Part shown: in pieces, positions 1 to 20,450 of the stretch
How positions within the stretch are numbered: position 1 is the first letter of the stretch
Layout of the letters: each line of letters starts with the position of its first letter
Virus record (IMG/VR): IMGVR_UViG_3300044712_001933
Location: 1-64,000 of that record
DNA length: 64,000 bases
Reading direction: 5' to 3' (one strand)
Source of the DNA: a virus
Made by a program: the position numbers and the translations under genes
Notes under the pieces: generated by a model
Seen by the model: only the letters and a program-made list of their open reading frames with translations
Told to the model about the DNA's origin: nothing
Database searches by the model: none

Positions 1-1
1 C

Positions 2-376
2 TACCGACCAGAGGCCGGCAAGATCCCGCTCACCAATCTGCTCGGGTATCTGACGCGGACCGGTATCATGGCGCGCCTCAGGCGCCTGGAGAATGCCATC
101 TTCCCTGCTCACCTCGCAGACGCCCCCCAAGAGACAAAAGATGTCCTGCAGTCATGCGGAATTGCCGTTCCGTTGCTCTTTACGACCTCTGGTATCGGCA
201 ACATCGACATCGATAATTCAGATACCCGGGCGATCGCCGGGGCACTTCTGCAGGCCGGCATTATCAATCAAACGGAGCATGACGGGATCTTAGCTCTATC
301 TGATCTTCCGACCAGTAGGGCGAATTATTTGTTTGGGGCACCGGTCACTATAGACGATATCCAAAGGAGTCATTAA
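2..376 (+). CDS. 3' part of an unrecognised late protein
   Basis: The frame is open from the first bases of the window and runs to a stop at 376, so the gene probably begins upstream. An internal ATG at 68 would give 102 aa. No family is recognised. The protein is of mixed character with no membrane segment or Cys cluster. It ends 2 nt before the next gene, whose SD (AAAGGAG) lies in the last codons of this one, so the two are probably co-transcribed as part of the rightward late block. Confidence 0.6.
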   Translation, partial: YRPEAGKIPLTNLLGYLTRTGIMARLRRLENAIFPAHLADAPQETKDVLQSCGIAVPLLFTTSGIGNIDIDNSDTRAIAGALLQAGIINQTEHDGILALSDLPTSRANYLFGAPVTIDDIQRSH

Positions 377-378
377 AT

Positions 379-1026
379 ATGGCAACGACTTTCCAAGAGA
401 CGTGGACCGATAACGTCACCGTCGTCACCCCCCAGGTCCTAGCCAGGGGGTCCTCTGTGTCAGGTACTCTCGACCTCCGATCAAAACTGGGAGCGATGAT
501 CATGCCCCGGGTAGGTCGAGGCGGGACGGCTGCGCTGACCAACGGGGTGGACGTAATCATACGCCCCATCCTTAACAACGGTACTGCCTCTGCGGGGGTT
601 CGGGAGGCTGCTGGCACGGCGCTGCTATCCAGCACCGCTGCGGCTAACTCGACGACCGTGAACGTGGACAGCAATAGTGGCCAAAAGGAACTCAAGGTCG
701 CCGCAATCACGGGGTGGGCCGTCGGGGATTGGCTTTGCATCCAAGATTCGGGTGGGGGCGTCACACGCCTCGAATTCGCCCGCATCAGCAAACTGTCTGT
801 AGCAAGCGGGACTGGGGTTACGCTGGACCGGAACCTTGCCTACTCTCACACTTCCGCCCAGGCAGACACTGTCCGGAACAAATCGGACGTCTTCAACGAA
901 ATTTGGATCTACGGTGGGGCCCTCTGGGAAGTCGTATTTGACTACGGTGACGACAGCGCCGGCGACAGCGTGACTGTTTGTGCGAAAGCCCGCACTCTCG
1001 ACTATATCTCCCAGGTTACGGTGTAA
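379..1026 (+). CDS. Hypothetical virion-type protein, 215 aa
   Basis: An AAAGGAG ribosome site lies 10 nt before the ATG. The protein is rich in Thr, Ser, Val and Gly, with alternating polar/hydrophobic stretches typical of beta-rich phage structural proteins. No catalytic motif is visible. It sits directly upstream of the long repeat fibre gene, separated by 6 nt, so a role in tail or fibre attachment is plausible. That role is inferred from position only. Confidence 0.6.
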   Translation: MATTFQETWTDNVTVVTPQVLARGSSVSGTLDLRSKLGAMIMPRVGRGGTAALTNGVDVIIRPILNNGTASAGVREAAGTALLSSTAAANSTTVNVDSNSGQKELKVAAITGWAVGDWLCIQDSGGGVTRLEFARISKLSVASGTGVTLDRNLAYSHTSAQADTVRNKSDVFNEIWIYGGALWEVVFDYGDDSAGDSVTVCAKARTLDYISQVTV

Positions 1027-1032
1027 CGGGGC

Positions 1033-4000
1033 ATGGCGAATATCCTCAGAGGTTCCCAGTACTGGAGGGACAACAAACCCCCGCCGGGATCCCGTATCGA
1101 CTGGGGACATCCTCTGAGTCAGGGTTTGATAGCTTGCTGGCCCATGAACGAGGGCGCTGGGAGCAGGCTTGTAGACCTTGTCAACGGCTCTCACTTTGTG
1201 ATGAGCCCTATATGCAAGTGGGACAGGGGACGTGTCTACTTTTACGACGATGGTTCGACTCACGCATACGCCAACGCCCCAAGGACAGAAAAGTTCAGAA
1301 ATCTCACAAAATTCACGCTCGTAATGGATGCGGCGGTGTACGACCTAACGTCGTCGCTGCTGACGCATTGGAACGGGGCGCAGGCTGGGTATGGGATTTA
1401 CACCTCCTACAACGTCTCGTATCAGTCGTTTCTGGTTTGCAATGTCGGCAATAATGTTGGAGAGGCGAGCGGAACTGCTGGGGAAGTGGTCGTGGGCAGC
1501 CGGTATATGTTCGCAGGTACCTACGACGGGGTGTCTGCAAAGGCATTTTTGAACGGTAAGCAGACGGGCAACTCTGCGACACTTGGTGCCCCTACCAGTG
1601 TGGACATTGGCCTGGGGATCGCCACGTATAACGAGTATACCACCACCGGGCGAACCGGGTACTATTACTCGGCCCATATGTATGATAGGGCGCTGTCCCA
1701 GGCGGAACTCCGAGAGCTCTACCTAAATCCGCTTCAGTTCCTCAGAGTACGGACCCCCATAACGTACTTTTTGAAATCTGCTCTGGTCACTGTTAACCAG
1801 ACCAAAGATGCCACCTGGAACACGTCCATTCTCGCTACTTTAGCGAAGGCAGCGACCTGGAACACGTCTGCATTAGCCGGCCAAACAAAGGCGGCCACTT
1901 GGAACGTCGGCGCCCTCATTTCTCAGACGAAGGCCCTTTCCTGGAACGTCACGATCCCCGTTGCCGGTTCGAAGCCTACGACTTGGAACGTATCCATCTT
2001 AGTAGCCGGATCCAAGGCTGCAACCTGGAGCGTGGGGGCCCTGATCTCCCAGACCAAAGCCCTTTCCTGGAATACGTTGATCCTGGTGCCTGGAACGAAA
2101 GCCACTACCTGGAATGTCTCGATTTTGGCAGCCGCCTCAAAGGCTGCAAGCTGGAACGTGGGGGGCCTGATCTCTCAGACGAAGGCCCTCACCTGGAACG
2201 TCACGATCCCGGTCGCCGGCTCGAAGGCAACGACGTGGAGTGTCTCGATCCTAGTGCCTGGAACTAAGGCAATGACTTGGAATACGTCTGCCCTTGCGGC
2301 AGGCTCTAAATCCACGACCTGGAACACCTCTGTTCTGACGGCTGCCTCAAAGGCCGCGACCTGGAACGTGGGGGCGCTGATCTCCCAGACGAAGGCCCTC
2401 ACCTGGAATGTCACGATCCCCGTGGGTGGATCTAAAGGGGCGACGTGGAACGTCTCCATTCTGGCAGCCGCGTCAAAGGCTGCTACTTGGAACGCTCTAG
2501 CACTGGCCGCCGGCTCGAAGGCCGCCACCTGGAACACGTCTGCCCTGGCGTCCAACTCAAAGTCCGCCTCGTGGAGTGTAGGCGCGCTTATCTCTCCGAC
2601 TAAAGCTCTCGCCTGGAACGTCTCGATTCCCGTTGCCGGCTCGAAAGCTACCACTTGGAACGTCTCGATTCTGTCGGCCGCGTCAAAGGCGGCGACGTGG
2701 AACACCTTTGCCCTTGCTGGTCAGTCGAAACCCGCAACCTGGAATACGTCTGCACTGATTTCTGGGTCTAAGGCTGCGACGTGGGCAGTCCAAGCCCTGG
2801 CCAGCTCCACCAAAGCCGCCTCGTGGAACGTATCCACGACTGCCTCGAACACTAAAGCCGCCTCGTGGGGCATATTGGCGCTTATCTCGGGACTGAAAGC
2901 CCTTTCCTGGAATACCTCAGCCCTGGCGGCCGCTTCGAAGGCTGCGACGTGGAATGTGTCTGCCCTGGCGGCCGCCTCGAAAGCCGCCTCCTGGAACGTC
3001 TCTCTAGCGGTGTCAAGCTCCAAAGGAGCCGCCTGGAACGTCTCGATCCCCATCTCTGCTTTAAAGGCAGCCGCCTGGGATTTATCCAAACTCGTCTCTG
3101 GATCGAAGGAAGCGACGTGGGACGTTTCCAAGCTGGCTGGACAGGCGAGCGACTTTACGTGGAACCTATCGGCCCCTGCGGTGGGCGAAACGGTCTTGTT
3201 TTCCTGGGACGTGTCGATCCCGATCGCTGCTTCAAAAGAGTCCGCCTGGAGCGTATCGAAACTGGTCTCGATTTCAAAGGCGTCATCGTGGGATACTTAT
3301 GCTAGGGTAGGGAAACACTGGGAGTTTGTGTGGAAGGTGCTCGCCGCCACCGGGGGAACCCTGCAAGCCCGGTTCGACGTGTCGAAATTGGCCGCCCAAT
3401 CGAAGGAGCTGGGCTGGGGCCAGTCTTCCCTGGCCGGCACCTCTAAATCTGTCTCGTGGGGCCTGCTGGAAGCCATCTCTGGATCTGCCGGGCTTTCCTG
3501 GGACACCTTGGCGCGAGCCGCCGGCTCAAACGCTATCGCATGGAACGTCTCGATCCCTATTGTCACCACGCAAGGGGCCACCTGGAACGTCTCGATCCCG
3601 GTGGGTATGACAAAAGAGGCCGTGTGGAGCGTTCTCGCTCACGCCGCGCAGACCGGTGAGATTTCCTGGGACGTCCTACAGCACTCCGGCGCCCTCAAAA
3701 ACATCCGGTGGGACATCTCGCACGCCGCGTTTACTGCCACGGTGGATTTGTCGTGGAACGTCTCGAAATTCGCCTCGGCCGCCAAAGTCGCCGCATGGGA
3801 CGTATCCAAGCTCGTCCTGCCTTCCGAAAAGGCCCTTTCATGGGAGGTTTCGAAGCTGGTCAGCCCTTCAGCGAAGGAGCTGGCCTGGGCTTTACGGGCG
3901 ATCGCCAGCAAGTCGCTGGATCCGCGGTGGGACGTTGCAGCACTGGCCGGCCGGGCCGAGGACCTGTCCTGGCACGTCAGCCAACTGGTCAATCCCGCGG

Positions 4001-4461
4001 AGTTCCCGCTGACGTGGGACATCAACACGCCCATCGGTTCTGTTTTCGATTTATCGTGGATCATAAAACGGTTTGTTCCACGAATCATGTGGATGCCGGA
4101 CGCTAGACCGGCGAGGGTAGTAAAAGTAAAGGGGGACAAAATGCTAACAGCTGGGGATACTGTACAAGATATCGCCTATGTGCCAATTCTCGAGGGGGAC
4201 ACCCCGGATTTGGACGGCGCCACGGTGAAAATAATTTTCACGGACGCTGATGGAGGTAGGACTGAGAAGGATGCCGAAATCATCGACGGCGCCGAGTATG
4301 ACGCGCACTACACTGGGGTCTCTGTTTTGCGCTACAAGCCGACTGCAGACGACATAAAAGCGGGCAATTACCTGGTCTACTTCAAGGTGACGTTTCAAAA
4401 CCAGAAGCAGAAATATTTCCCCTTCGGGGGCATCTCGCTTCAAATCGCGGAGGCGCCATAA
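1033..4461 (+). CDS. Tail-fibre-like protein with LamG-like domain and 54 Trp repeats
   Basis: 1142 aa in three parts. Residues about 20-240 look like a LamG/concanavalin-type sandwich (GLIACWPMNEG near the start, an AGTYDG segment, and a YDRALSQAEL segment typical of such domains at the end). Residues about 257-1015 are some 54 near-perfect 14-residue repeats of the pattern xATWNVSxLxxxSK, with one Trp per unit. The last ~105 residues (from MLTAGDTVQD) resemble the N-terminal domain of BppU-type baseplate proteins. The architecture suggests a long receptor-binding or spacer fibre with a carbohydrate-binding head. The stop overlaps the next ATG. Confidence 0.75.
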   Translation: MANILRGSQYWRDNKPPPGSRIDWGHPLSQGLIACWPMNEGAGSRLVDLVNGSHFVMSPICKWDRGRVYFYDDGSTHAYANAPRTEKFRNLTKFTLVMDAAVYDLTSSLLTHWNGAQAGYGIYTSYNVSYQSFLVCNVGNNVGEASGTAGEVVVGSRYMFAGTYDGVSAKAFLNGKQTGNSATLGAPTSVDIGLGIATYNEYTTTGRTGYYYSAHMYDRALSQAELRELYLNPLQFLRVRTPITYFLKSALVTVNQTKDATWNTSILATLAKAATWNTSALAGQTKAATWNVGALISQTKALSWNVTIPVAGSKPTTWNVSILVAGSKAATWSVGALISQTKALSWNTLILVPGTKATTWNVSILAAASKAASWNVGGLISQTKALTWNVTIPVAGSKATTWSVSILVPGTKAMTWNTSALAAGSKSTTWNTSVLTAASKAATWNVGALISQTKALTWNVTIPVGGSKGATWNVSILAAASKAATWNALALAAGSKAATWNTSALASNSKSASWSVGALISPTKALAWNVSIPVAGSKATTWNVSILSAASKAATWNTFALAGQSKPATWNTSALISGSKAATWAVQALASSTKAASWNVSTTASNTKAASWGILALISGLKALSWNTSALAAASKAATWNVSALAAASKAASWNVSLAVSSSKGAAWNVSIPISALKAAAWDLSKLVSGSKEATWDVSKLAGQASDFTWNLSAPAVGETVLFSWDVSIPIAASKESAWSVSKLVSISKASSWDTYARVGKHWEFVWKVLAATGGTLQARFDVSKLAAQSKELGWGQSSLAGTSKSVSWGLLEAISGSAGLSWDTLARAAGSNAIAWNVSIPIVTTQGATWNVSIPVGMTKEAVWSVLAHAAQTGEISWDVLQHSGALKNIRWDISHAAFTATVDLSWNVSKFASAAKVAAWDVSKLVLPSEKALSWEVSKLVSPSAKELAWALRAIASKSLDPRWDVAALAGRAEDLSWHVSQLVNPAEFPLTWDINTPIGSVFDLSWIIKRFVPRIMWMPDARPARVVKVKGDKMLTAGDTVQDIAYVPILEGDTPDLDGATVKIIFTDADGGRTEKDAEIIDGAEYDAHYTGVSVLRYKPTADDIKAGNYLVYFKVTFQNQKQKYFPFGGISLQIAEAP
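1803..4080 (+). repeat. About 54 tandem 42-bp units encoding a 14-aa Trp repeat
   Basis: Successive Trp codons are spaced 42 nt apart, with a few 45-nt units near the 3' end. The 5' units are nearly identical (for example ALISQTK recurs every third or fourth unit in the first 20). The 3' units are diverged, with WDVSKLV in place of WNVSALA. This gradient suggests recent expansion by slippage or recombination at the 5' side of an older array. Confidence 0.9.
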
Positions 4462-4721
4462 TGAGTACGATACCTGGAATGGTTGTCGGCCTGATTGGTC
4501 TGCTGGGCGCAGTCGGCGGAGATGCCGCTGCCTCTCATTTAGACCCGAATACGTCAGTACCTCTGGGGGTTGCTTTTGCCGCCGGAGGGGTATGTGTGAC
4601 CGCGGCTTTCTGGATCGGATCCAAGCTGACGAAGATTAATGACAGACTCTGGTCTCTAGAGACAAAAATGAACAGCCGTCCGTGCTTCAAGGAGCCGGAC
4701 ACCTGCACCAATGAAAAATAG
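4461..4721 (+). CDS. Small two-segment membrane protein, holin-like
   Basis: 86 aa with two hydrophobic stretches (residues about 5-25 and 33-53) separated by a short Asp/Asn-containing loop, then a charged amphipathic tail with two Cys. Size and topology fit a class II holin, but no holin family is recognised. The start codon overlaps the stop of the fibre gene (TAATG), and the 3' end overlaps the lipoprotein gene by 11 nt, suggesting translational coupling. A membrane-anchor role for the following lipoprotein is the alternative. Confidence 0.55.
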   Translation: MSTIPGMVVGLIGLLGAVGGDAAASHLDPNTSVPLGVAFAAGGVCVTAAFWIGSKLTKINDRLWSLETKMNSRPCFKEPDTCTNEK

Positions 4722-5445
4722 ACTCATTTGGATCGCCTTGCTGGCTCTCACCTTGACGGGCTGTTCGTTATGGCCCAAGCGGGTGGAGATCGGCCGGGAC
4801 AGCGTCAAGCCCGTTCCTACGGTGGCGCCGGCGGCTATCGAAACTCAAAAACAAGCGGCCGACTACCTGGCGGACAAAACGGAGGAGGTCAAAGTGGCCG
4901 CTATAAGCACCGGCGCGGCCACAAACGTCGTCTCTACAGCGTCGGAAGCCGCCACCGTGGCTCGAAGCCTATCTCTGTCTCTCGGGCCGCCAGAAACGCC
5001 CTGGAAGGCCGAGGCGGAGCGTTTATCACAGCTCTTGAAATACCAGGAAGCGAGGTATGACGCCCGGATCGCAGCCTACCGGAAAGAAGTGGCCGGGAAT
5101 GTGGGCAAGAAAATCGAGGGGTCGGGATGGTTCTCGATCAGCTATTTCACCCAGTGGTGGGTGGTCTTGATCGTGACGGGGATCCTGATCGGCGCCCTGA
5201 AGCTGTACGGCACGCTCAACCCGGTCGTGGGACTGGGGGTGGGGGTGGTGGAACGCGTCTCCGGCCGGGTGCTCCAGGCGGGCTTCGACCAAGTCGTCAA
5301 AGCCGGCGAGAATTTCAAGTACTACCTGGCGCACTCAGCCCTGACGGAGTCCGATAAGATAGCTGTCAAAACGATGTTCAGGAAAGCGCAAGAAGAGATC
5401 CAAGATCCGGCCGTCAAAGCCGTGATCGACAAACTAACCGCATAA
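4711..5445 (+). CDS. Lipoprotein with internal membrane segment
   Basis: 244 aa. The N-terminus is a clear lipoprotein signal: MKNR, a hydrophobic core, then the lipobox LTGC, so Cys18 would be lipidated. Residues about 25-130 are an Ala/Glu/Lys-rich helical region, and a strong membrane segment follows around residue 147-168 (WWVVLIVTGILIGAL). The combination of lipid anchor, helix and transmembrane segment is reminiscent of unimolecular spanins or of proteins that bridge the envelope, and together with the preceding holin-like gene it could be a lysis pair. No endolysin lies beside it, so the function remains inferred. Confidence 0.6.
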   Translation: MKNRLIWIALLALTLTGCSLWPKRVEIGRDSVKPVPTVAPAAIETQKQAADYLADKTEEVKVAAISTGAATNVVSTASEAATVARSLSLSLGPPETPWKAEAERLSQLLKYQEARYDARIAAYRKEVAGNVGKKIEGSGWFSISYFTQWWVVLIVTGILIGALKLYGTLNPVVGLGVGVVERVSGRVLQAGFDQVVKAGENFKYYLAHSALTESDKIAVKTMFRKAQEEIQDPAVKAVIDKLTA

Positions 5446-5456
5446 AAGGAGGACAC

Positions 5457-5486
5457 ATGCCGAAGAAAAAAGGTAAGGGCTGTTAA
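5457..5486 (+). CDS. Micro-ORF of nine codons with a perfect SD
   Basis: An AAGGAGG ribosome site lies 4 nt before an ATG that opens only nine codons (MPKKKGKGC) before TAA. It directly follows the lipoprotein gene, and the stop overlaps the end of the convergent RuvC-like gene by 4 nt. It could be a true micropeptide or the relic of a gene cut short when the opposing gene was joined here. Confidence 0.4.
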   Translation: MPKKKGKGC

Positions 5487-5983
5487 TTATACCGAGCCCA
5501 CGTAGCGAGAAGGACCGCATCTGCAGAGTTGTGGTCCTTTTTTCGTTTAAAGAGGTCGGCATGGTTGGGGAAAATCGCTGTCGCGATAGCACGGCTGTCG
5601 AATTCGACCTTCTTGTCGATTCCGAGCTCTTTTCGGTACCAGAACTGCCACTTTTGTGGACTTACGAGGAGGGGCGGCTGGTGTCCCGTACAGAGGAATA
5701 GCGCACTCTGAGCCCACCCGGTCGACAAGCCGAATGAGAACATGGACACGACACCTTGGCCGGGCATGGCGTGGACGTCCTCGATAACCGCTTTAAAAGC
5801 CCCTGTAGCGAGGGTTTTGATGGCTACCGCGATATCCCCCAGCTCCTTAAAGTCTCGCGTAACCATTAATCTGCCATCACCCAAACGGGCAACGGCACCA
5901 GACTTGCCAGGATCGACTGCGATGATAGGAGGACCGTCAAGAACCCCAGAAAATGAAAACCCCATAGGGTTAACGTACCCCAT
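5483..5983 (-). CDS. RuvC-like Holliday-junction resolvase / RNase H-fold nuclease
   Basis: 166 aa. Carboxylates sit where RuvC-type nucleases carry them: IIAVDPGKSGA (Asp24), VIEDV (Glu68) and HNSADA (Asp155), with a VSPQKWQ segment between. Length fits phage RuvC-like resolvases. It would resolve recombination or replication junctions before packaging. It is the last gene of the long leftward transcript and faces the rightward late genes tail to tail. The second Met (position 7) is an alternative start, because no clear SD is seen. Confidence 0.75.
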   Translation of the reverse strand: MGYVNPMGFSFSGVLDGPPIIAVDPGKSGAVARLGDGRLMVTRDFKELGDIAVAIKTLATGAFKAVIEDVHAMPGQGVVSMFSFGLSTGWAQSALFLCTGHQPPLLVSPQKWQFWYRKELGIDKKVEFDSRAIATAIFPNHADLFKRKKDHNSADAVLLATWARYN

Positions 5984-6013
5984 GGGGCTGAGTAGTACAA
6001 GTGCGTAGGGAAA

Positions 6014-6358
6014 CTAGCCGGTCCGGAACATCTCTGCCAGGCGCTCGATATCCCCCATGGTCAGCCCAGACGCTGCCAGGAATTGCTCCGGCGTCATCTG
6101 GTCTTTTAGGGACGCCGTGGGCTTAGGCGTCTGGGCACGAGTGCCCGCCTGGGCCTGGACCTTGTTAGGATCCGGCGTGGCCCGGATGACATTAATGCCG
6201 TCGCTGATGAACCCGGCCTCAACCTTATGGAACAGGTCGGAGGGCAGCGGCCCTGCGGGCGAGCTCTCCGGCGACCGTTGGGTCGGTGACGTATTGGTGC
6301 CCTTTGGCGTATTCTTCTTGCCCGAAGACCCGGGTGTCGAAATAGGTTGTTTTGGCAT
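6014..6358 (-). CDS. Hypothetical protein overlapping the end of the giant gene
   Basis: 114 aa, hydrophilic, with a Pro/Ser/Thr-rich first half and a helical C-terminal tail that includes the segment MTPEQFLAASGLTMGD. Its first 134 nt overlap the last codons of the giant protein gene in another frame, and no strong SD is visible. A shorter product starting inside this frame is possible. It precedes the RuvC-like gene by 30 nt. No family recognised. Confidence 0.5.
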   Translation of the reverse strand: MPKQPISTPGSSGKKNTPKGTNTSPTQRSPESSPAGPLPSDLFHKVEAGFISDGINVIRATPDPNKVQAQAGTRAQTPKPTASLKDQMTPEQFLAASGLTMGDIERLAEMFRTG

Positions 6359-9300
6359 AGCTTATCTTATTCTTGTCGTCTGCGTCTAATAGTACTCTAG
6401 CTTTGTCCACGTTGTCAAGCCATGCTTTTGCGTTCTCGGCATACTTGGCAGGATCCAAATGGACCGAATCGTAGCGCCCGGAGATTTCCGGGATATACTG
6501 CATGCGGATGCCGAGAATCCGTCCATTTGTGTCTTTAGCAATGGTGAACCCGTCAATGCCGGCCCGCATAAACGCTTTAATGATCGGGGCTGTCTGGGCC
6601 CGGTTCAACGTCGATTTAAAGCCTACCTCCATCCCCGGCCGAGCGTTGGGGTGGTTCTGGTCGACCACGTAGGACGCGAACACGTCTTCCTGCTTCGCCC
6701 GCTGCCCAAGGTCAAAAATCTGCTTCTCGAAGTGCGGGAGAGCATCTGACCCGTGGAACGTGGCTTCAACGTCGAACGTCGGCTCGCGCTCGAACATGAA
6801 CATGCCGTCTGAGGCATTCACACGAGACGCCATGAGGCCGGGCATCTTGCCAATGGCTCGGCGGAGGTCCTGGCGCTCCTTTTCAAACACGCCGATGTCT
6901 ATCCCGCGCTGTTCTTTTCGCGCCCCGGGGTACTCCGGCGGCAGGAATTCTTTGCGCGCGGTGGTCACGCCCGCCTGGGCCCTGACGGAGCCGCTCAGAT
7001 CCACGGCCCGGAAGTCGCCCTTCTTCTTGCCGGCGGCCTCGGTCCAGTCCTTTTTGTCCCAGAGATCCTTCTCGGCAAACCACAGGATCGCCTGCATGTC
7101 GTCAGGCTCCAGGCCGGCCTTCTCGGCAGCATATCGGAAGCCCTTTTGGGCCAGGACGAAGTCCCCACCGTACTCACCCTCTTTATTGCGGCCGTAGGAC
7201 ACCCCGTTTTCCTGCTGGGGCGTGATCCTCCACTGCGGCGTATCCTTGGAATAGAGCAGTCGGCGGACCATGCGGGCGGCCCAGACGTCGATCGTGGCCT
7301 CAAAGGTGCGTCCGGTCAGGTTGCCGGCAAAGTTGGGCGTCTTGGGCCCCTTGGTGCGCTCGAGCCAGTCCCCGTACAAGACGTCCAGGACTTTGGCGCT
7401 GTTCATGCCGAAGAGCTGTCCGTCTTCCTTGGTCGGGAGCTGCCCCCAACTCGCGGGATCTCCGCCGGCTTCCCGGTGCTTGTCGTAGGAGTCCAACAAA
7501 GTGTCGAAATCTCCCCGGGAGTACATCCGCATCGCTTCCAGGGCGTAGTTCAGGTTGCTTTCGACGTCCGTGTTGGCAGACGTGGCGCCTAGCAGCTGTC
7601 CAAACATCTCCAGGGTGGCTCCAAAGGCTTTTTGGAACCGTTCCCGGACGTCCGCATACCAGCCCTTGCCGGCCACGATTGCCGGGATATCTTTGACCTT
7701 TAGGTACTCCTTATACAGAAGCTTCCCTAAATGCTTCCCGCCCTTGTCTAATACTTCGGCGCTCTCCTGAGCTTTCAGGGCCTCCCGTTTGGCAATAAGC
7801 TTGTCCAGCTGTTCCTGAATCCTCGGCTTCTGGCTGACGTCGGCCTTTTTAAGGATCCTGCGCTGCGCTTCTACCTGTTTCTGGGCCGCCAAGTGCTTCG
7901 GGGCATACTTCGCTTCAACATCCTCGGCAATTTTGACGATTGCCGGAGCGTTCATCATGCCGTAGGGGATCTTCTTATACATGAGCTTGCCCTTGTTGTC
8001 GGCTCGGATAGATCCGTCCTCAGCCAGCGCGAGCTCCAGGGGAATGGATTCTGGCCAATTTTTCTGCTCCTCTAAATTCCCAAGATGCCGGGCACGCAGC
8101 TCTTCCTGAGTGGGCGGCACGTTAGGGCTGAACCGCATGGAATACGCCCCATTGGCGTCGTAGACCATCCGGTCGTTGTAAACGAGCCGCAGCCCCTGAG
8201 CCGTTGCGGCATCCTCGAGGGCCGCGCGCTGCCCCCGGGGCAGGCTCTCAAAAGTGCTCCCGCGTCGGCCGGTAACATAGAGGGCCCCATCCTCTTTCTG
8301 AGCACGCAGGAAATTACGGCCGGCCAGCTCGTCGTAGACGCCGGCGAGGCGATCCATGCTCTGGACCTTCAACGGCTCGCCATACACTTTTTGGTGCCAA
8401 TCGGAGGCAGCAACTTCATGCCCTCCAGAGGCGTCCATCAAGGAGCCGTCGGGGCGGACCCAGAATTTGCCGGGCGTAGCGTTGGACGCTTCAGGCAGCA
8501 CTTCAGAAATGAGGGACTTCGCCTCCTCGGGGGTGCTGGCGGATCCGATCTTGTAGAGCTTCCCGCCGGCAATCTTCTGCTGCAGCTCGTAGAGGCCGCC
8601 CCGCGGCACCACTTCGAACCTGTCGCCGCCGACTTCCGCGCGCCACCGGTCCGTGCCGACTTCCTGCCAGTCCAGATTCGGAGAGTAACGAGCGTCCGAG
8701 ACCTCTGGGTTGAACCGCTCGGACAACGGGATGACGTTGCCCTGGTCGTCCTTCGTTACGGGGTCAAGAAGTTTGCCCGTGCCGTCGGTTTCGCCCTCTT
8801 TCAGGCCAAGCTTTGCCAGGTCAAGCCCACCCCCATCCCACGGCATCGTCTTTTGCCCCGCATCGGTCAGTATCTTGTTGACCTCGGCCTCGGACAAAAT
8901 CTTGTTGACCTTCATGGATCCAGAAATGATCCACTCCCCGGTCATGTTGGGGTTCGTCTTGTACCGATACATGCCGTCGGCGGGCATCTGTTTGATGTCC
9001 GCCTTGACCGCACTGAATTTTCCGGTCTTCGGGTTGACCCCGTTCTGACGGGCCTGGGGCTGGTAGTCCTTGTCGGCCGCTACCTCGACTTCTCCCCAAA
9101 CTTCGTTGGCGCGCCGGGCGTAGACGTTCCCATCCGGCCCCTTGACACCAATGTGTGTGGCCAGCGGCGTATCACCCGCGTGCCATCCCGGCCGGAAGGC
9201 TAAGTCGCCTAGCTTCGACTTCACCCCGCCGGTCTTACTCTCGGGACCCGGCAGTGCGTCGAGCCATACTCCCGTGGGAATCGCCTGGTTCGCCCCCACA

Positions 9301-12300
9301 AATAAGGGGAAGAGCTCCCCGGGCCGTTTGGGGTTCGTCGAAAAGAGCTTATACGCCTTGACCGTCTTCTGAGGGGGCGCCGTGCGCCGCACTCGGAACG
9401 CTGTCGAGCCGCTATCATCAACGATCGGCAGCCCAGACTCCTCGGCGGCCTTGTTGACCATCTGCTGGGCCTTCTCCATGTCGCCGGAATTCACGGCGTC
9501 CAGGTATTCGGAATCGATGTCTGGGCTGAAGCGCGCGCCTTTCGGAGCTACGGCTTTCGTCCCGCCCTCGCCTTGGCCTAGCGGTGTCAGGGCGATCTTG
9601 GGAAACGTCATCGCCACGGTCCGCTTGTCGTTCGTGTCAACAACGAGGCCGGCGTAGCCCGCGTCCCGCAGCATATCGTCGGCAGCTTCCCGATTGATCA
9701 TGCTGAAATACCCCAGCGGGTCGGATTTGCCGGCGCGCAAGTCGTAAAAGCGGCTGCCGTCAACGACGGCGCCATACGCGTACTTGTTATTGAACAACGC
9801 CTCGTCCTGGCCAAAATCGGACCCTTCCAGGAACAGGTAGGACTTGTTCCCACCGCGCAGATCCCGCGGGTTCGCGGAGCCCTTGCCAAAATACTTAGGA
9901 TCCAGCGTTTTGAGGTTCTGCCTCCCGCTGTAGTGAATCAGCCGGAGCGGAATGGGACCAACAGAGTAGGGCAGGGTCCCCTTACCTTTCAGCTGGATGT
10001 CGTCAGCCACAGCCGGGCTGGCCTGGATGGGTGAAGGATGAGCGGCCGGGTTGGAGCGCGCTTTTAAAGCGCTGTCCAAAACCTCGTCCGCCGTGGAATC
10101 GGGCGTGAGATTGAGCACCTTTTTCTGGTACTCGCCTCTAGCGAGCGGAGCGTCGCCAGGCTTCACCGTCTCCATGCGATCAAGCCTGAACGACCTGATA
10201 ATGCCGACCCGGTCCTTGCCGGTAAGCGCTTCCCGGAGCGGGTTGGCCTTCATGTTGGCCACGTTACGGCCGATCACGACGGTGTTGATGAAATCGCGCT
10301 TTGCCTGACCGATACCGTCTTCGCCCGGGCGTCCCTCCGAGTGGTTTTTCAGGTAGGTCACGAAATCCTTGCGGAATTCTCCCTTGTCCCCGTTCCAAAG
10401 AGGATCGAGCTTCCCGCCGGCCTGCAGCTCGGTTGCCCGTTTCTCAAACGTAGTCAGGTCGAGCATGACAAAAAGCACGTTCCCGCCCTTAGCTGCAGCC
10501 TTTCCCCCATCCAGGGACACGGTGCCTTTTTTAGTCACCACGATGGCTATCGGGATGCCCTCCCGCTCGGTGAAGGAGAGGTTGCCTAACGTCTTGCCGA
10601 GGTTCCGAGCCCATCCGCCAGGCATGCCGCCGGACGTCGAGATAGCGTGATAGATGAATTTGACGGGGGTGCCGCTGGCGATGGCTTCCTCCAACAATTT
10701 CGCGTACCCCTTGTGGTCCTCACTATACTTTTGTAGGGCGGCAAACCACGCCGGCATCTTTGTGCCGGTGACAGCCACGCCTCCGCCGACCTGGGCCCGC
10801 GGCGCCACTTCGGGATTCGGATCCCCGATAGGCTTGACGGGCTGCTCGCCCATCGCCGCCTCTACTTCCTTGGCGCGCGCTTCCTCAGTTTTACGGACCT
10901 CCTTGGGAGTAAGCTCGCGGACCTTACCGTCAGCCGTTTGGACGACGAAGTCATTGCCGACGGTCCCATCAGCCTGTTTGTGCAGCGGTAGCGGGCCACC
11001 CTCTTTGCCCACCATCTCTTTAGTGACTGGGACAGCTTTCTCCTTAACCTCAGTGATGCCCGGCAAGCGGTTGTTAAGCTCTCGAATGTACCCATAAGTG
11101 AGTTTGCGCAGGGCAGGGGAGTCCAACACGTCGTCCAAATTCGTAAAGAGGGACTTATACCCGGGCCGGGTCTCGGTTCGAACACCGATGGCAGAAAGGA
11201 TCTTACGGCCAGCGCTGAGCGCCAGGTCGGTCAACCCCGGGGAGCGAATCACGTCGTTGTAAATGTGCTTGCCCTTTAAAGACCCAATCCCGGCGTCGGC
11301 GAAGATTTCACCGTAGATCCAGGCATTAGAGTCACCGTAATCGACGGTCGACCGGTGCTGTTGCGACGCAAGCTCCGCGTCGATTGTGGCTTGATACTCA
11401 GGAGAAGCTTTCCATGCCTCGTACTGCTGGTACTTGCGTTCCTGGACGGCTCGCTCCGCGTCAGTTCGAGCGGAGGCGACCTGTTCAGGAGTGGCATCAG
11501 GCGTTAGCGGGGCGCTCTTCAGCTGAGCGTCTACCTCGGCGGCGTATTCCGGAGACTTCCTCCATTTTTTGAGCTCGGCATCTTTTCGGCCGACCACCAG
11601 GCGCTCCGAGTATTCGCGGGCAGCGGCCTGGAGGCGCGCAGGGTCACCAATGGCCGAGTCGATCACGGACCGGATGTGCGGGCTATTCGCCGCCTCAGAC
11701 GCCATAATGGCGTGGCTGACTTCGTGGTAAAACGTGTCGGCAAGATTCCGGCCGCCCTCCATGTTAACCAAAACGACGGGCTTATCCCCATCCCGGAAAA
11801 ATCCAGCGGTGCCGTCGCCTCCGCCCTTCGCGGCATACTCGGCGCCGTTTACGAATCGGATGTCTAAACTCCTTCCAAAAGCCTTTTGGAGGCGCGCGGC
11901 CGCAACCATGACGTCGTCGGTAATGGTGCGAGCCATCAGTTCCGGATCCGCCCCGTTGGCGAGCTGTCGCGCCACCATTTCGGTGACGTTTTGGGCGTCC
12001 GACTCCCAGACCTTGGCTTTCTTCTGCCAGGGGTGGGTGGCCAGGCGCATGCCGTAGCCGAGGGTCCCGCCCGAGCCGATGGATGCCCCGAGCTCTTCAG
12101 GATTCTCGGCGGTAAGGGCCCCGATTCCGGCACCGAACGCGGCACCGTGGGCGGTCGACTTAGCGACATCCTTGGCAAACCGGGCACCTTTTTCGACGCC
12201 GAGGCTGTCCAGAAAGGTCGCGGACACTTTCAGCCAGTCGGCAGCGTCCGGATTGGCTGCGACCTGTTTTAGCCGGGAGAACTGAGGATCAAAAGTGGTG

Positions 12301-13406
12301 GACATGAGGTGCCGGCCGGCGTCAGCAGCACTCTGCAGACCCTGTCCAGCGACTTTCAGCCCTTTGGCCCCGGCGATCGTTGTACCGAGAGGGCCGAGGG
12401 CGCCCACGACGCCGGCCCCGGCGCCCACGTTCGTGAGCGTTTGCGCAGCCTTCTCAGCATACGCAGGCCCCACCATTTTCTCGGCGGTCTTTTCAATGAG
12501 CTTCTCGGGGAGCTCCCCGACAAATTGAGCGGCCGCGCCGAGCTTATCAGTCGCAGCGACAGCCGTATTGGCGACCCGTTCCGCGGCTTTCCCAGGAAGC
12601 TGAGCAGCTTTTGCCGCCAGTGCCGTGAGCGTCGGGGCAGCCTCGGCGATCTTTGCGGGAAGCTGGGCAGCTTTGACGGCGGCCGCGGTCAGTGTAGGCG
12701 CAGCCTTGGCGATGGCACCCTGTACCCCATGAGTGGCCGCATGCTTGATGGCGGACTTGACAGCCGAGGACACCCCGAGAGACCCCACAAAACTGGGATC
12801 GAGGACGTTCGAGGAAAACTCAGAAACCTGGTTGTAGGGGAGAGCCGGCAGCAGCCAGTCCGGTGTTAGATTTCCTTTACCGTCGAGCCCTTGTTCTCGT
12901 TGCTGTTGGGCGGCCTTATTCGCAATCAGCCGCTGGTAATAAGCTTGGAAATGCTCCTCGGGGGACAACTTGGTAAAATGGTCCCACGCCTTGTTAGACG
13001 CCATCCGGACCATGTTCCCCATGTCATAGAATCCGCGCGACAATCCCTCTATGGCAGAAGCCCCAAGACGGGGTGCCGTATTCCGGCCCAGGTCTGACCA
13101 AACCTCATAGGCACCCTCGCCCAAAGATTTGCCGACGCTGTTCACTCCTCCAGCAATTCCTTTCCCGAGATCGGACCAAAACCCCCCAGAGAAGAACCCC
13201 TTCGATTGATCGTCCTCGTAAAGCTTTCGCGCCTGGGCTTCGTTAGGGATAAAAGTACTCCCCTCGGCGCCCGTCATCTGCTTGAGCTCGTCCACGGTCG
13301 GCTCCTGAGAACGGCCAGTAAACACCACCCCGTTCTCCCCTTTAGACTGTTGTGCAGAAGCTGGCTCGGCGTCCATTGTCCTGCCCGTATAGATTATGTC
13401 GTCCAT
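6225..13406 (-). CDS. Giant multidomain polyvalent / internal-virion-type protein
   Basis: 2393 aa, start supported by AAGGGG close to the ATG. Residues about 200-450 are an Ala/Gly-rich amphipathic region that could insert in membranes. Residue about 560 carries a zinc-peptidase motif, FYHEVSHAIM (HExxH). Residues about 1155-1270 contain an 'IHYSG...LDP' segment like those of phage polyvalent proteins. Residues about 1345-1525 form another distinct module. Residues about 1900-2090 end in TIDVWAARMVRRLL, which recalls HhH-GPD DNA-glycosylase folds. Such giants are usually injected with the DNA to disarm host defences or ease entry. Domain names are by resemblance only. Confidence 0.7.
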   Translation of the reverse strand: MDDIIYTGRTMDAEPASAQQSKGENGVVFTGRSQEPTVDELKQMTGAEGSTFIPNEAQARKLYEDDQSKGFFSGGFWSDLGKGIAGGVNSVGKSLGEGAYEVWSDLGRNTAPRLGASAIEGLSRGFYDMGNMVRMASNKAWDHFTKLSPEEHFQAYYQRLIANKAAQQQREQGLDGKGNLTPDWLLPALPYNQVSEFSSNVLDPSFVGSLGVSSAVKSAIKHAATHGVQGAIAKAAPTLTAAAVKAAQLPAKIAEAAPTLTALAAKAAQLPGKAAERVANTAVAATDKLGAAAQFVGELPEKLIEKTAEKMVGPAYAEKAAQTLTNVGAGAGVVGALGPLGTTIAGAKGLKVAGQGLQSAADAGRHLMSTTFDPQFSRLKQVAANPDAADWLKVSATFLDSLGVEKGARFAKDVAKSTAHGAAFGAGIGALTAENPEELGASIGSGGTLGYGMRLATHPWQKKAKVWESDAQNVTEMVARQLANGADPELMARTITDDVMVAAARLQKAFGRSLDIRFVNGAEYAAKGGGDGTAGFFRDGDKPVVLVNMEGGRNLADTFYHEVSHAIMASEAANSPHIRSVIDSAIGDPARLQAAAREYSERLVVGRKDAELKKWRKSPEYAAEVDAQLKSAPLTPDATPEQVASARTDAERAVQERKYQQYEAWKASPEYQATIDAELASQQHRSTVDYGDSNAWIYGEIFADAGIGSLKGKHIYNDVIRSPGLTDLALSAGRKILSAIGVRTETRPGYKSLFTNLDDVLDSPALRKLTYGYIRELNNRLPGITEVKEKAVPVTKEMVGKEGGPLPLHKQADGTVGNDFVVQTADGKVRELTPKEVRKTEEARAKEVEAAMGEQPVKPIGDPNPEVAPRAQVGGGVAVTGTKMPAWFAALQKYSEDHKGYAKLLEEAIASGTPVKFIYHAISTSGGMPGGWARNLGKTLGNLSFTEREGIPIAIVVTKKGTVSLDGGKAAAKGGNVLFVMLDLTTFEKRATELQAGGKLDPLWNGDKGEFRKDFVTYLKNHSEGRPGEDGIGQAKRDFINTVVIGRNVANMKANPLREALTGKDRVGIIRSFRLDRMETVKPGDAPLARGEYQKKVLNLTPDSTADEVLDSALKARSNPAAHPSPIQASPAVADDIQLKGKGTLPYSVGPIPLRLIHYSGRQNLKTLDPKYFGKGSANPRDLRGGNKSYLFLEGSDFGQDEALFNNKYAYGAVVDGSRFYDLRAGKSDPLGYFSMINREAADDMLRDAGYAGLVVDTNDKRTVAMTFPKIALTPLGQGEGGTKAVAPKGARFSPDIDSEYLDAVNSGDMEKAQQMVNKAAEESGLPIVDDSGSTAFRVRRTAPPQKTVKAYKLFSTNPKRPGELFPLFVGANQAIPTGVWLDALPGPESKTGGVKSKLGDLAFRPGWHAGDTPLATHIGVKGPDGNVYARRANEVWGEVEVAADKDYQPQARQNGVNPKTGKFSAVKADIKQMPADGMYRYKTNPNMTGEWIISGSMKVNKILSEAEVNKILTDAGQKTMPWDGGGLDLAKLGLKEGETDGTGKLLDPVTKDDQGNVIPLSERFNPEVSDARYSPNLDWQEVGTDRWRAEVGGDRFEVVPRGGLYELQQKIAGGKLYKIGSASTPEEAKSLISEVLPEASNATPGKFWVRPDGSLMDASGGHEVAASDWHQKVYGEPLKVQSMDRLAGVYDELAGRNFLRAQKEDGALYVTGRRGSTFESLPRGQRAALEDAATAQGLRLVYNDRMVYDANGAYSMRFSPNVPPTQEELRARHLGNLEEQKNWPESIPLELALAEDGSIRADNKGKLMYKKIPYGMMNAPAIVKIAEDVEAKYAPKHLAAQKQVEAQRRILKKADVSQKPRIQEQLDKLIAKREALKAQESAEVLDKGGKHLGKLLYKEYLKVKDIPAIVAGKGWYADVRERFQKAFGATLEMFGQLLGATSANTDVESNLNYALEAMRMYSRGDFDTLLDSYDKHREAGGDPASWGQLPTKEDGQLFGMNSAKVLDVLYGDWLERTKGPKTPNFAGNLTGRTFEATIDVWAARMVRRLLYSKDTPQWRITPQQENGVSYGRNKEGEYGGDFVLAQKGFRYAAEKAGLEPDDMQAILWFAEKDLWDKKDWTEAAGKKKGDFRAVDLSGSVRAQAGVTTARKEFLPPEYPGARKEQRGIDIGVFEKERQDLRRAIGKMPGLMASRVNASDGMFMFEREPTFDVEATFHGSDALPHFEKQIFDLGQRAKQEDVFASYVVDQNHPNARPGMEVGFKSTLNRAQTAPIIKAFMRAGIDGFTIAKDTNGRILGIRMQYIPEISGRYDSVHLDPAKYAENAKAWLDNVDKARVLLDADDKNKISYAKTTYFDTRVFGQEEYAKGHQYVTDPTVAGELARRAAALRPVP

Positions 13407-15737: not shown

Positions 15738-16100
15738 CTATTGGCCGTGGAACACCTTGCCGAACAGGGTCGTGTCGATAATTGGCGAGTAGCCCTGGCG
15801 CTCCATCAACGGGTAGAACGGCGAGGTGTTGGCACACGGCAAAATGACACTGCCATACCCCTTAGTTTTAACGATCTGCTCACCCCGCTTCCAGAGCATG
15901 AGACTGTCGCGAGGACTTATCCGCCGGCTGTCGAGCCAGACGTGCAGGATCGGCGTATTACAAATGGAGGCGTAGCCGGCGACAGTCCCGTCTTTTTCAA
16001 CTACATGGGTGGGAAAAAGGACGGTATGGTTGTCGGCCTGGGCGGCCTTCCACAAAACGTCCATGTCTGCCGGCAAGTATGGGCGCAATGTCGCTCTCAT
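15738..16100 (-). CDS. GNAT-like acetyltransferase-fold protein
   Basis: 120 aa starting at an ATG that overlaps the stop of the glycosyltransferase gene (ATGA), a strong sign of translational coupling. This start is preferred over upstream codons that would run back into the neighbour. The pattern MRATLRPYLPADMD...VAGYASI...ERQGYSPI is like a small GNAT fold, with the usual beta-bulge and the final 'GY' strand, but a clear acetyl-CoA loop is not seen. A joint role with the glycosyltransferase in modifying a sugar or a virion protein is inferred from the coupling. Confidence 0.5.
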   Translation of the reverse strand: MRATLRPYLPADMDVLWKAAQADNHTVLFPTHVVEKDGTVAGYASICNTPILHVWLDSRRISPRDSLMLWKRGEQIVKTKGYGSVILPCANTSPFYPLMERQGYSPIIDTTLFGKVFHGQ

Positions 16101-17224
16101 CGCGCAAGCCATAGATCGGTTTCGACGGGGCGTTCCTGGTACCACCCACGGTCCCAAATATCATAGAGGCTGTCGAAGTAGAGCTGATAGAGTTTGCCGG
16201 CGCGCTCCATCGAGAAATTATGATCCGCGTAGCCGCGTATGACGTAAGGATCCAGGTCCGGAGCCCGTTTAGCAGCCTCGAGGAATTCCGCGAAGGTCCG
16301 GCATCGAAAGCCATTCACGCCTTGCATGACGGTCTCGCTAAACACTCCCCAGTCAGTAGTGATGACGGGAGTGTGGCAGAAATTCGCCTCCGCGTGGACA
16401 CCTTCAAAGGGCCCGATATACCACGTTGGCGTGAACAGCGCGAGGGCGCCGCCCATCAATTCGTTGCGCTGTTTCGGGTCTACCGTGCCAATGTGCTCGA
16501 CGTTCTTGTACGTCGACAGATCCATGCCGTCGACGTTGCTGAGATCGCCCTGGCCGGCCACGATGAGCTTTTTACCGAGCTTCGCCGTTACCTCGCAGGC
16601 GACCGACAGCCCCTTGCGGGAAATGAGCCGGCCGACGAACAGATAGTAGTCGCCCTTCTTGGCGGGAGCTACGGGAAACTCTTCCGGGGCATAGGAATTG
16701 GGGATGACCGTGTCGTACCATGCCCCGTCCTCGACTCCCATACGGCCGTACAGGTAGTGCATCCACGCATAGGACTCAAAGACTTTGTGCTTGGCAAACA
16801 CCCCAGAGTAACCGATCCCGGACTCGACGGTGAACCGCAGATTCGTGCCCTGGGAGACCGGCAAGTGGTAGTTGCCCATGGTCACGAGGAGGAAATCCCG
16901 TTCGTCTTTTATGGCGTTGATTTCCGCCACTGCCCGGGCGTTGAAATTCTCATGGACTTTGTCCTTCGGCTCATGCTTAAAGAACTCCTTGCGCCAATTA
17001 TACTCGCCATAAGCCGCGACCCGCTCCTCTTTAGTGCCGACCGTGAAAAGTCGGTCGCACGGGACGTCACTTCCCTCAGTGCCGTAAAAAAATACAGTAT
17101 GGCCCCGGTCTTTGAGCATGCGCGCAAGCCGGATAATTTTTTGAGAATACGCGCAACTGCAAAATTCAGGTGCAGTAGGTACGTGGGCAAGGCCCAAGAG
17201 ATGAAAGCGGTATTTTTGACCCAT
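16097..17224 (-). CDS. GT4-type glycosyltransferase
   Basis: 375 aa, GT-B fold. The C-terminal half shows GDYYLFVGRLISRKG, a nucleotide-sugar site region, and GPFEGVHAEANFCHTPVI, which aligns with the EX7E motif of GT4 enzymes. The first Glu of that motif is Gly here, so activity or donor use may differ. SD GGGG lies about 10 nt before the ATG. A terminator separates it from the collagen-like gene upstream, so it may have its own promoter. It might glycosylate the neighbouring Gly-X-Y fibre or alter host surface sugars. Confidence 0.75.
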   Translation of the reverse strand: MGQKYRFHLLGLAHVPTAPEFCSCAYSQKIIRLARMLKDRGHTVFFYGTEGSDVPCDRLFTVGTKEERVAAYGEYNWRKEFFKHEPKDKVHENFNARAVAEINAIKDERDFLLVTMGNYHLPVSQGTNLRFTVESGIGYSGVFAKHKVFESYAWMHYLYGRMGVEDGAWYDTVIPNSYAPEEFPVAPAKKGDYYLFVGRLISRKGLSVACEVTAKLGKKLIVAGQGDLSNVDGMDLSTYKNVEHIGTVDPKQRNELMGGALALFTPTWYIGPFEGVHAEANFCHTPVITTDWGVFSETVMQGVNGFRCRTFAEFLEAAKRAPDLDPYVIRGYADHNFSMERAGKLYQLYFDSLYDIWDRGWYQERPVETDLWLAR

Positions 17225-17312: not shown

Positions 17313-20300
17313 CTACTCACAGATCGGTATATACCGCTGCGCTCCGCCAATGATGATCCCCAAGAATCCAACCACTTTGCGGCTATCCACGTAGGCGTAG
17401 CCGCTGGCAGTTACACTACCCGCCGCGCCCACCTGAACGACACACTCATTTCCGCCAAAATTGTTCCTAAAGCTAAGGCTACCACTGGAGCTGCTAAGAG
17501 TGACGTTGCCCGGGAACGTGTAGTTGCCCGATCCAAACGTCCCCTGCGTGATGGTGCTCGCAGACTGGGTATGACTGCTGGAGCTGCCCCCATCCACACT
17601 AATAGACCACCAAGTGTTTTGGTTATCACAGATTCTAAGCTGTTGCAGGGCCTGATCCCACAACAACTTGCCCTCCTCGGTGTTGCCGTACTCACCATCG
17701 TCCTCCCGAACGGGAGCAATGAAATCAGCTCCCCTGCAAGCAATGCGACCAGAGAACAAGACGTCGCCACTGCCAATGGTAACGGATGCGTCAGTATACC
17801 CTGGTTTTGCTGTTAATAAAGAGATCTGGCGAGCAGAAATCTGTAGCCCACTATTGTCGTCTGTGATCAGGTCGAGATCGATTAATCCTTCTGCGTTTTG
17901 TCCCCCCGGCCGACTGAAATCGTAATGCAGATGCGTGTCTTGGAGTTCACCATCCGATGGACAGTACGGGATATACGGGCGGTGTACCATAAGCCCATCA
18001 GTGCTCCCCGGGGGGCCAGGAACCCCGCTCGGGCCCGTGGCACCCGTTGAACCCGCTGCGCCGGCACTTCCAGGAGTGCCCTGCGCGCCGGCAGGCCCGG
18101 CCTCTCCAGGCTTCCCGACCCCGTAAGAAAAAGGAATGTTGGTGTCAGCAGGATGACAAACCTGAAATTGCCAGCAGTCCACATAGGCAGTGCCGGTGGA
18201 TCCCGGATCCCAATACATCAGAAGCCTGATCGATTTGGTAGTCTGGGTGATAGCGAGAGCCGCGCCGGTTCCGACGCCCCCGACGGTGGTCGCGTAACGA
18301 GTCCACCCACCGTTGCTTGCGGAGATCATCGCAACCGTTGAGTAGGCGATAATGGACGACCCGTTGACATCAGAGTAGGTCGCGAGGACCAGGGAAAAAG
18401 TTCCAGAGACGACCATGACCTTGGCCATGGCGGCCAAAAGGTAGGGGATGGCAGGATTGACGAGAATTGGAACGCTTCTGCCTAGCACCTCGCTCGTGGA
18501 AGCCACTAACTTGCCAGAATATGACCCCTCGTATTTATCGTCGGAGGACCGCACAACAGCGCCATCCCACCCATTAGAAATATTGGTGTCCTCAAAAGAT
18601 GGATTTATGACGAGATTAGCACCAACGCCACGAGGTCCGGAGGGGCCTTGTGCGCCTGCACTTCCGGGGATGCCTTGAAGCCCGCTCGGCCCGGTTGCCC
18701 CACTTGGGCCTTGTGCTCCGGGACTGCCAGGAGTGCCAGGACTTCCAGGGACCCCGCTCGGCCCGGTTGCCCCACTTGGGCCTTGGGCGCCCGGGCTGCC
18801 TGGACTGCCTGGGCTGCCGGGAACCCCCGAAACCCCTGTTGCCCCGGTTGGTCCTTGTGCGCCAGGACTGCCGGGAGTGCCAGGGGTCCCGGGAACTCCT
18901 GAAACCCCTGTTGGCCCAGTTGGTCCTTGTGCCCCGGGACTGCCGGGAGTGCCAGGACTTCCAGGAACCCCCGAAACCCCCGTTGGGCCTGTTGGTCCTT
19001 GTGCCCCGGGACTGCCGGGGGTGCCAGGACTTCCAGGAACCCCCGAAACCCCAGTTGGCCCAGTTGGTCCTTGTGCCCCAGGACTTCCAGGACTGCCGGG
19101 GGTGCCCGGAACCCCCGAAACCCCAGTTGGCCCAGTTGGTCCTTGTGCCCCAGGACTTCCAGGACTGCCGGGGGTCCCAGGAACCCCTGAAACCCCTGTT
19201 GGCCCGGTCGCCCCAGTATTTCCAAGTGGTCCTGTACTTCCGACCGGGCCTGTACTTCCGACCGGGCCTGTACTTCCGACCGGTCCTGTACTTCCGACCG
19301 GCCCAGTTGGTCCGGTACTGCCGACTCCGCTAGGGCCGGTTCCACCAACTACCCCGCTCGCCCCGGTAAAACCGCGCGGCCCGGTTGCCCCGGTCTCGCC
19401 CTTGCCCGGCGGCCCGGTCCAACCTTGCGGCCCAGTTGCCCCAGTATTTCCAAGTTCGCCTCGAGGCCCGGTCGCCCCGGTCTCACCGCGCGGGCCGGAC
19501 TCGCCAACCCCTTGGGGCCCGGTCCAACCTTGGGGCCCGGTCGCCCCAGTATTTCCAAGTTCGCCTCGAGGCCCGGTTGGCCCGGGATCACCCTGCGGGC
19601 CGGTTTCACCGACCCCCCGAGGCCCGGTTGGCCCGGTATTTCCAAGTCCACCGACGGGCCCGGTCGCGCCTGTATTTCCAAGCTCCCCTTGAGGCCCGAC
19701 CGGTCCTGTACTTCCGACCGGTCCTGTACTTCCGACCGGTCCTGTATTTCCGACCGGTCCCGTCCCGCCAACAGGGCCAGTACTCCCAGTGGCGCCTTGG
19801 GTCGCCGCAGGCCCAGGGGGACCTTCCGGCCCGGTTGCCCCAGTACTTCCAGCGGGTCCAGGGGGCCCGGATTCGCCTTGTGGGCCAGTTTCGCCCTTGC
19901 CCGGCGGCCCAGTCCAACCTTGACTTCCTGTGGGTCCAGTGCTACCGACAGGGCCGGGCGGCCCCGGGCTTCCAACATCTCCGGGAACCCCGCTCGGCCC
20001 GGTTGGGCCAGGAACCCCAGGGACTCCGCTCGGCCCGGTCCCACCACCAACCCCAGGAACCCCGCTCGGGCCAGTACTCCCCGTATTTCCAGGCGGGCCA
20101 GGAACCCCGCTCGGGCCAGCCGGGCCCGTACTTCCAACACTCCCAGGCACGCCGCTCGGACCAGTGCTGCCCGTATTTCCAGGCGGGCCGGGGTCACCAA
20201 CGGCGCCAGTAAATCCGCGAGGCCCCTGATCCCCACTTGGGCCGGTAAAACCGCGAGGCCCGCTCGCACCGGTATTTCCAGGGAGACCAGGGTCCCCGCT

Positions 20301-20450
20301 AGGGCCGGCCGGGCCAGTACTTCCGACACTCCCAGGAACCCCGCTCGGGCCAGTACTACCCGTGGCGCCCTGCGTCGCCGCCGGCCCAGGAGCGCCTTGA
20401 GGCCCGGTTGCGCCCGACGCTCCAACATTGTATAGAGAAACTAATGGCAT
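17313..20450 (-). CDS. Collagen-like fibre with galactose-binding-like insert
   Basis: 1045 aa. Residues about 10-608 are some 200 uninterrupted Gly-X-Y triplets, rich in Pro, Ser and Thr. Then about 170 residues (starting [10 protein letters not shown]) look like a carbohydrate-binding jelly-roll module. A second short Gly-X-Y stretch of about 13 triplets follows, then about 225 C-terminal residues that could form the trimer head. Phage collagen-like proteins form triple-helical fibres. Here the order (short N-terminal anchor MPLVSLYNV, stalk, lectin-like module, stalk, tip) suggests a host-recognition fibre. It opens with the same TACTAATT-type start context as the adaptor gene. Confidence 0.85.
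18640..19215 (-). repeat. Tandem 72-bp units in the collagen-like stalk
   Basis: Eight or so near-identical 24-residue units of the type [13 protein letters not shown]...SPGAQ follow one another. Shorter identical blocks (GPVGST) lie just upstream around 19200-19320. Their close identity suggests stalk-length variation by unit gain and loss. Confidence 0.8.

Follow-up and report, generated by a model that had tools for sequence, protein, structure and literature searches.

A 54-unit tryptophan-centred repeat array in a predicted phage fibre gene and its relatives in cultured Vibrio phages

The fibre locus and its two versions

The window analysed here is the whole 64,000-nucleotide stretch, bases 1–64000 of a 69,605-base virus record (C1), and the fibre locus lies at its left end on the plus strand. 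The contig start cuts a gene for a 177-aa protein, of which the C-terminal part remains (2..376), and this is followed by a 215-aa protein (379..1026) and by the fibre gene itself, an open frame of 1142 aa (1033..4461). The encoded protein comprises an N-terminal head of the LamG/concanavalin-like type (1033..1806), a long tandem array with the unit pattern xLxWNVxxxVxxxx, hereafter W14 (1807..4080), and a fused C-terminal domain that appears BppU_N-like through its similarity to two proteins of other loci (4084..4458). The earlier note on this DNA had described a Trp-centred array of 54 units, and this description is confirmed by the unit count, by residue shuffles and by a profile of the family. 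Fifty-three of the units, each of 14–15 residues, contain a single in-register Trp and one carries Phe in its place (RFDVSKLAAQSK). The Trp spacing is 14, apart from a few spacings of 15 in the 3' half and a single irregular site (3310..3405, aa 760–791) where inspection of the repeat reveals an extra Trp (GKHW) and the Phe unit. In total, 46 Trp pairs of the array lie exactly 14 residues apart, against a maximum of 12 in 20,000 residue shuffles.

Identity between units 1–32 by codon position (0.60/0.68/0.39 for positions 1/2/3) indicates that selection acts on the fibre protein. Mean DNA identity between units at different lags is 0.51–0.62 in the 5' part of the array versus 0.39–0.47 in the 3' part, the best 5' pairs reach 0.88, and higher-order periods of 3 and 5 units are present (74% match). 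The 5'-to-3' gradient of similarity that had been taken as a sign of ongoing expansion is thus present, although 'near-identical', as the 5' units had been called, overstates their likeness. The protein gives no Pfam Collagen match and contains no Gly-X-Y repeats. No position of W14 is dominated by Gly or Pro, unlike the conserved Gly/Pro in the turn of the ~15-residue repeat that marks a triple beta-spiral of the adenovirus shaft type, which is a homotrimer.

A second fibre gene (version B) is found at the far end of the record (L009, C1:60000–69605), and its LamG head is 33% identical to that of the window gene (version A). The 215-aa protein of version A corresponds to two paralogues, of 216 and 213 aa, in version B. 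The left fork of the two versions (1..126) is an exact 126-bp copy of C1:66490–66615, and they rejoin inside the array at 2320..2446, which is an exact 127-bp copy of the contig end (C1:69479–69605). At both forks the two versions share 98% DNA identity, which falls to about 50–60% across the heads, and version B has one unit more than version A ahead of the rejoining point. The picture is that expected when a circular (or circularly permuted) genome with two versions of one locus is assembled with k=127. The record carries a linear classification, but each contig end forms one arm of a single assembly bubble, so that a circular or circularly permuted genome of about 66 kb is probable.

Versions A and B might instead be tandem genes of a single phage and not alleles in a mixed population, a reading that we hold to be a serious one, if the less probable. 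A relative, L143, has two neighbouring W14 genes, and a tandem pair in a circular graph would equally produce a contig that runs from A through the rest of the genome to B; the exact 126- and 127-bp overlaps at the forks, on the other hand, are the plain k=127 bubble signature of two alleles, and no third segment joining B to A is seen within the record. Taken as two alleles, the versions suggest a route by which receptor-binding heads could be swapped, namely recombination inside the repeat. No reverse transcriptase or resolvase family able to drive head switching was found on the contig.

The head of version A matches Laminin_G_3 (PF13385) at aa 116–226 with an E-value of 9.7e-5 and 23.0 bits, below the 27.6-bit cut-off, and the head of version B scores 45.3 bits, above it. 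LamG domains were also found in further W14 proteins, and tblastn searches with heads A and B matched no phage record. A Pfam search of the C-terminus (4084–4458) gave no direct match, and the curated score for BppU_N (PF10651) was not reached. This region is, however, related to the L152 and L129 proteins (pairwise E-values of 2e-6 and 6e-5, respectively), which are separate proteins of ~112 aa whose genes immediately follow W14 genes, and which score 24.5 (L152) and 36.2 (L129) bits for BppU_N, both over the 23.1-bit cut-off. One step removed through these two relatives, we infer that the window C-terminal domain is BppU_N-like. In lactococcal BppU it is the BppU_N domain that serves for attachment, and the BppU/BppL receptor-binding assembly of lactococcal phages likewise brings together a BppU_N-like domain and a domain of receptor-binding type. 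BppU differs in having no W14 array, and the BppU_N-like copy in the window differs in failing the Pfam cut-off.

The W14 family and its partner family

Searches of Pfam, NCBIfam and the PDB sequences gave no match to the W14 array, the PDB sequence search with the fibre likewise gave none, and we found no paper on the repeat in the literature. The array is matched by the PHROG family phrog_6079, annotated 'tail protein' (E 5.9e-13, over six stretches), as are most other W14 proteins. What phrog_6079 shares with the window fibre is the repeat itself; it comes without a described repeat, structure or partner, and the match leaves out the LamG head and the BppU_N-like end. The claim that no standard fibre repeat of this form is known thus holds for Pfam, NCBIfam and PDB, whereas profile searching also placed the repeat inside an existing PHROG family, and it is widespread.

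A search for relatives with the array itself returned none, probably as a result of peptide patterns inside the repeats and of low-complexity masking. Spaced DNA patterns (W[ND] every 42 bases) uncovered W14 arrays in about 50 other viral stretches. An alignment of 40 segments of ten units each, with few gaps, shows an invariant Trp with N/D and then V/I after it; positions -4, -2, 0, +2 and +6 (Trp = 0) are hydrophobic, and a polar turn spans +7 to +9. A profile of ten units, from which the window had been left out, matched the window fibre with an E-value of 4.6e-122, and matched neither 600 shuffled sequences nor the collagen-like protein of the window. The spaced pattern also retrieved 117 stretches of bacterial genomes, nearly all of them non-coding tandem DNA. 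Since real protein arrays were rare among these (only L309, L316 and probably L247), W14 is essentially a phage repeat. The closest polymerase relatives (L163–L165 and L167) had no W14 array in the stretch examined.

Several other repeat proteins were encountered in these searches. One viral contig (L143) contains neighbouring W14 genes at 1181–2617 (16 units) and 2954–6640 (49 units). A second class of 14-residue Trp repeat, TSAxWDSxYTSVxx, occurs in very long proteins encoded on viral contigs (L014, L041, L073, L087 and others) and is apparently different from W14; its members in L014, L073 and L087 were kept apart, as their score against the W14 profile was smaller than the composition bias correction. 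The 'tail fiber' of Verrucomicrobia phage P8625, a tblastn match, is not a W14 array. Protein WBK39766 of Desulfofustis phage LS06-2018-MD01 resembles the window fibre in architecture, having a LamG domain followed by SYDLxLxVxxxx repeats, but these are centred on Tyr instead of Trp and irregularly spaced, and we treat the protein as a look-alike. A LamG plus SYDLxLxV gene of a Desulfofustis phage (L133:1924–4206) is annotated 'capsid protein', a label that looks doubtful.

Among 134 proteins neighbouring W14 genes, 20 match a single PHROG, phrog_13135, far above any other. With a dedicated profile this family was detected in 27 of 50 W14 loci versus 6 of the 99 other loci of those scans (Fisher p = 1e-10), a comparison group that also comes from Trp-array scans, several of the six having short or less regular W14-like arrays; it was found in none of 80 control loci around phage DNA polymerases. 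The phrog_13135 gene is on the strand of the array in all 27 loci and upstream of it in 24, usually immediately so, and for many of the 23 W14 loci that lack it hardly any upstream sequence is available. The member on the window contig lies upstream of the version-B fibre (C1:65749–66300, E 1.3e-20). AlphaFold2 models the phrog_13135 protein as a beta-sandwich (pLDDT 90.7) for which no clear solved relative was found; the best Z-score is 7.7, which may reflect a common arrangement, and type 1 pilins give 6–6.8.

The protein probably assembles with or on the fibre. Its similarity to pilins is weak, and we regard as very improbable a further scheme in which the W14 array and phrog_13135 form a mobile two-gene fibre system, one phrog_13135 subunit being bound by each W14 strand, in the role of docking or donor strand, and the array acting as a tape that sets the number of subunits. 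If true, such an arrangement would amount to a filament built by strand exchange, which no known phage fibre resembles.

W14 arrays on gp15 of the KVP40 group

Through phrog_13135 we arrived at Vibrio phages of the KVP40 group, in which a gene of this family lies directly after gp15 (KVP40, F86 and nt-1). The first ~222 residues of KVP40 gp15 are homologous to the T4 neck protein gp15 (PF16724), and it is just this part that the T4 protein shares. The remainder is a W14 array, with profile E-values of 5.9e-25 in KVP40, 9.6e-33 in F86 and 1.9e-15 in nt-1. Thus gp15 in this group, the Straboviridae tail sheath stabilizer or neck protein, bears ~13–14 C-terminal W14 units and is followed by phrog_13135. 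In KVP40 it is a neck protein that carries the array, and in the window the array is joined to LamG and BppU_N-like domains; a Pfam search of the window fibre protein did not find the T4 gp15 domain (PF16724). Because the array of KVP40 sits on the neck protein, the window fibre may by analogy be located at the neck, rather than at the tail tip.

We compared the length of gp15 in 13 phages of the KVP40 group with KVP40 as reference. The gp15 frame has 434 aa in KVP40, V05, phi-pp2, PG216 and V09, 420 aa (-14) in QD01, VS1 and VS2, 378 aa (-56) in nt-1 and CZ01, 504 aa (+70) in F86 and 337 aa (-97) in ValKK3 and VH7D. In the first two shorter groups the alignment gaps against KVP40 gp15 measure 14, 14 and 28 residues. 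The gp15 of phi-pp2 (L364) is annotated as 57 residues shorter than that of KVP40, but reads in the same 434-aa frame from MGNLF, so that the two differ only in the annotated start.

W14 units in gp15 are thus mostly gained or lost whole, which directly supports both the unit as a structural entity and a variation in length between isolates. The suggestion in the earlier note that fibre length varies between isolates gains indirect support here, from the one-unit difference between versions A and B of the contig and from gp15 relatives that differ mostly by multiples of 14 residues. The presence of W14 on gp15 of cultured phages, adjoining phrog_13135, means that the rod structure and the function of this orphan family could be tested together in existing isolates.

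Predicted structure and orientation of the fibre

In units 1–32, Ala, Ser and Thr are abundant and acidic residues scarce (33 K/R versus 4 D/E; units 33–54 have 26 of each), a composition that would suit a low-complexity, flexible linker with no fixed fold. We nevertheless think such a linker improbable, as three features argue for a fold: the invariant Trp, the V/I/L alternation conserved across ~50 phages, and the whole-unit insertions and deletions in relatives.

Ten units of the window were modelled with AlphaFold2 as a single chain, using the family alignment. All ten form a strand of 10–11 residues followed by a turn of 3–4 residues, and the strands are arranged as a two-sided beta-solenoid of modest confidence (pLDDT 69.3, pTM 0.59). 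VIA-align superposed this model on the two-sided beta-helix of SufD with a Z-score of 13.5 and 2.1 Å over 134 residues, and Foldseek returned no match at E <= 0.001. SufD and cyclase-associated protein (Z 13.5 and about 9) resemble the model in having two ~14-residue strand-turn units per coil; no sequence relationship to the fibre was found, their function is another, and the likeness is that of a prediction. In this class of fold, which also includes SufB, the parallel beta-helix is right-handed and has two strands in each coil. AlphaFold2 gives unrealistic beta-solenoids for perfect repeats, and for families with diverged repeats the methods agree (PMC11795689). The strand-plus-turn unit is well supported by the sequences, and we use the two-sided beta-solenoid as a working model only. 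A beta-solenoid or beta-prism with a Trp ladder, as had been proposed from the repeat pattern, is therefore upheld by the model as regards strand, turn and solenoid, and weakened by the pLDDT of only 69 and by the bias of AlphaFold2 towards such folds in repeats.

The same strand-turn units could instead be assembled in a homotrimer, as a beta-prism or triple-stranded beta-helix of the kind seen in many phage spikes, and not as a single-chain solenoid. Solved phage fibres and spikes are mostly trimers, and a homotrimer would fit the modest confidence of the single-chain model. SufD, however, offers this model a realistic match among solved structures (2.1 Å), and T4 gp15, the homologue of KVP40 gp15, is a hexameric ring, so that extensions from it need not be trimers; on balance we consider the homotrimer unlikely.

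A similarly unlikely possibility concerns orientation, with the LamG end on the virion and the C-terminal domain as the tip. Classical tail fibres attach through their N-terminus, and in KVP40 the anchored part of gp15 is N-terminal to the array. Yet in versions A and B it is the N-terminal head that has diverged (33% identity) and the two rejoin inside the array, which would leave them a common C-terminus if they are alleles; the role of BppU_N as the attachment domain in lactococcal BppU points in the same direction.

We conclude that the window gene probably encodes a long virion fibre with a rod-like spacer, an exchangeable LamG tip, a BppU_N-like attachment domain and a phrog_13135 partner. 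Three observations favour the assignment as a fibre: the match to the 'tail protein' PHROG, the LamG head and the structural partner gene. Each unit would form one beta-strand of 10–11 residues, from Trp -4 to +6, with alternate residues hydrophobic and a tight turn of 3–4 residues before the next. Stacked units would give a stiff rod, for which the simplest arrangement is a beta-solenoid that has two units in each coil and Trp and V/I in its interior; by this model 54 units would measure roughly 13 nm. The N-terminal LamG domain would be the exchangeable tip, probably sugar-binding, and the C-terminal domain most likely anchors the fibre to the virion; the phrog_13135 protein, made from the same cluster, would assemble with or on the rod. 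Gain or loss of whole units would change the rod length stepwise, and recombination within the array could exchange the tips.

Phage fibres as such are a known kind of structure, and we found no description of this repeat or of its gene pairing. W14 occurs in many unrelated phages, is invisible to Pfam and NCBIfam, and would connect phage particles with an exchangeable head of lectin type, at a length set in fixed steps.

Elsewhere in the window, a collagen-like protein of 1045 aa (17313–20450, minus strand) is encoded by DNA with 72/144/216-bp tandem repeats and matches Pfam Collagen (E 2.3e-83) and a PHROG tail fiber family. A glycosyltransferase-like protein (16097–17224, minus strand; phrog_3408, E 8.6e-89) and a Holliday junction resolvase-like protein (5483–5983, minus strand; phrog_1770, E 2e-20) are also encoded, a single open frame of 2393 aa occupies 6225–13406 on the minus strand, and a 27-bp tandem repeat is present in 2.5 copies at 41403–41470 (97% match).
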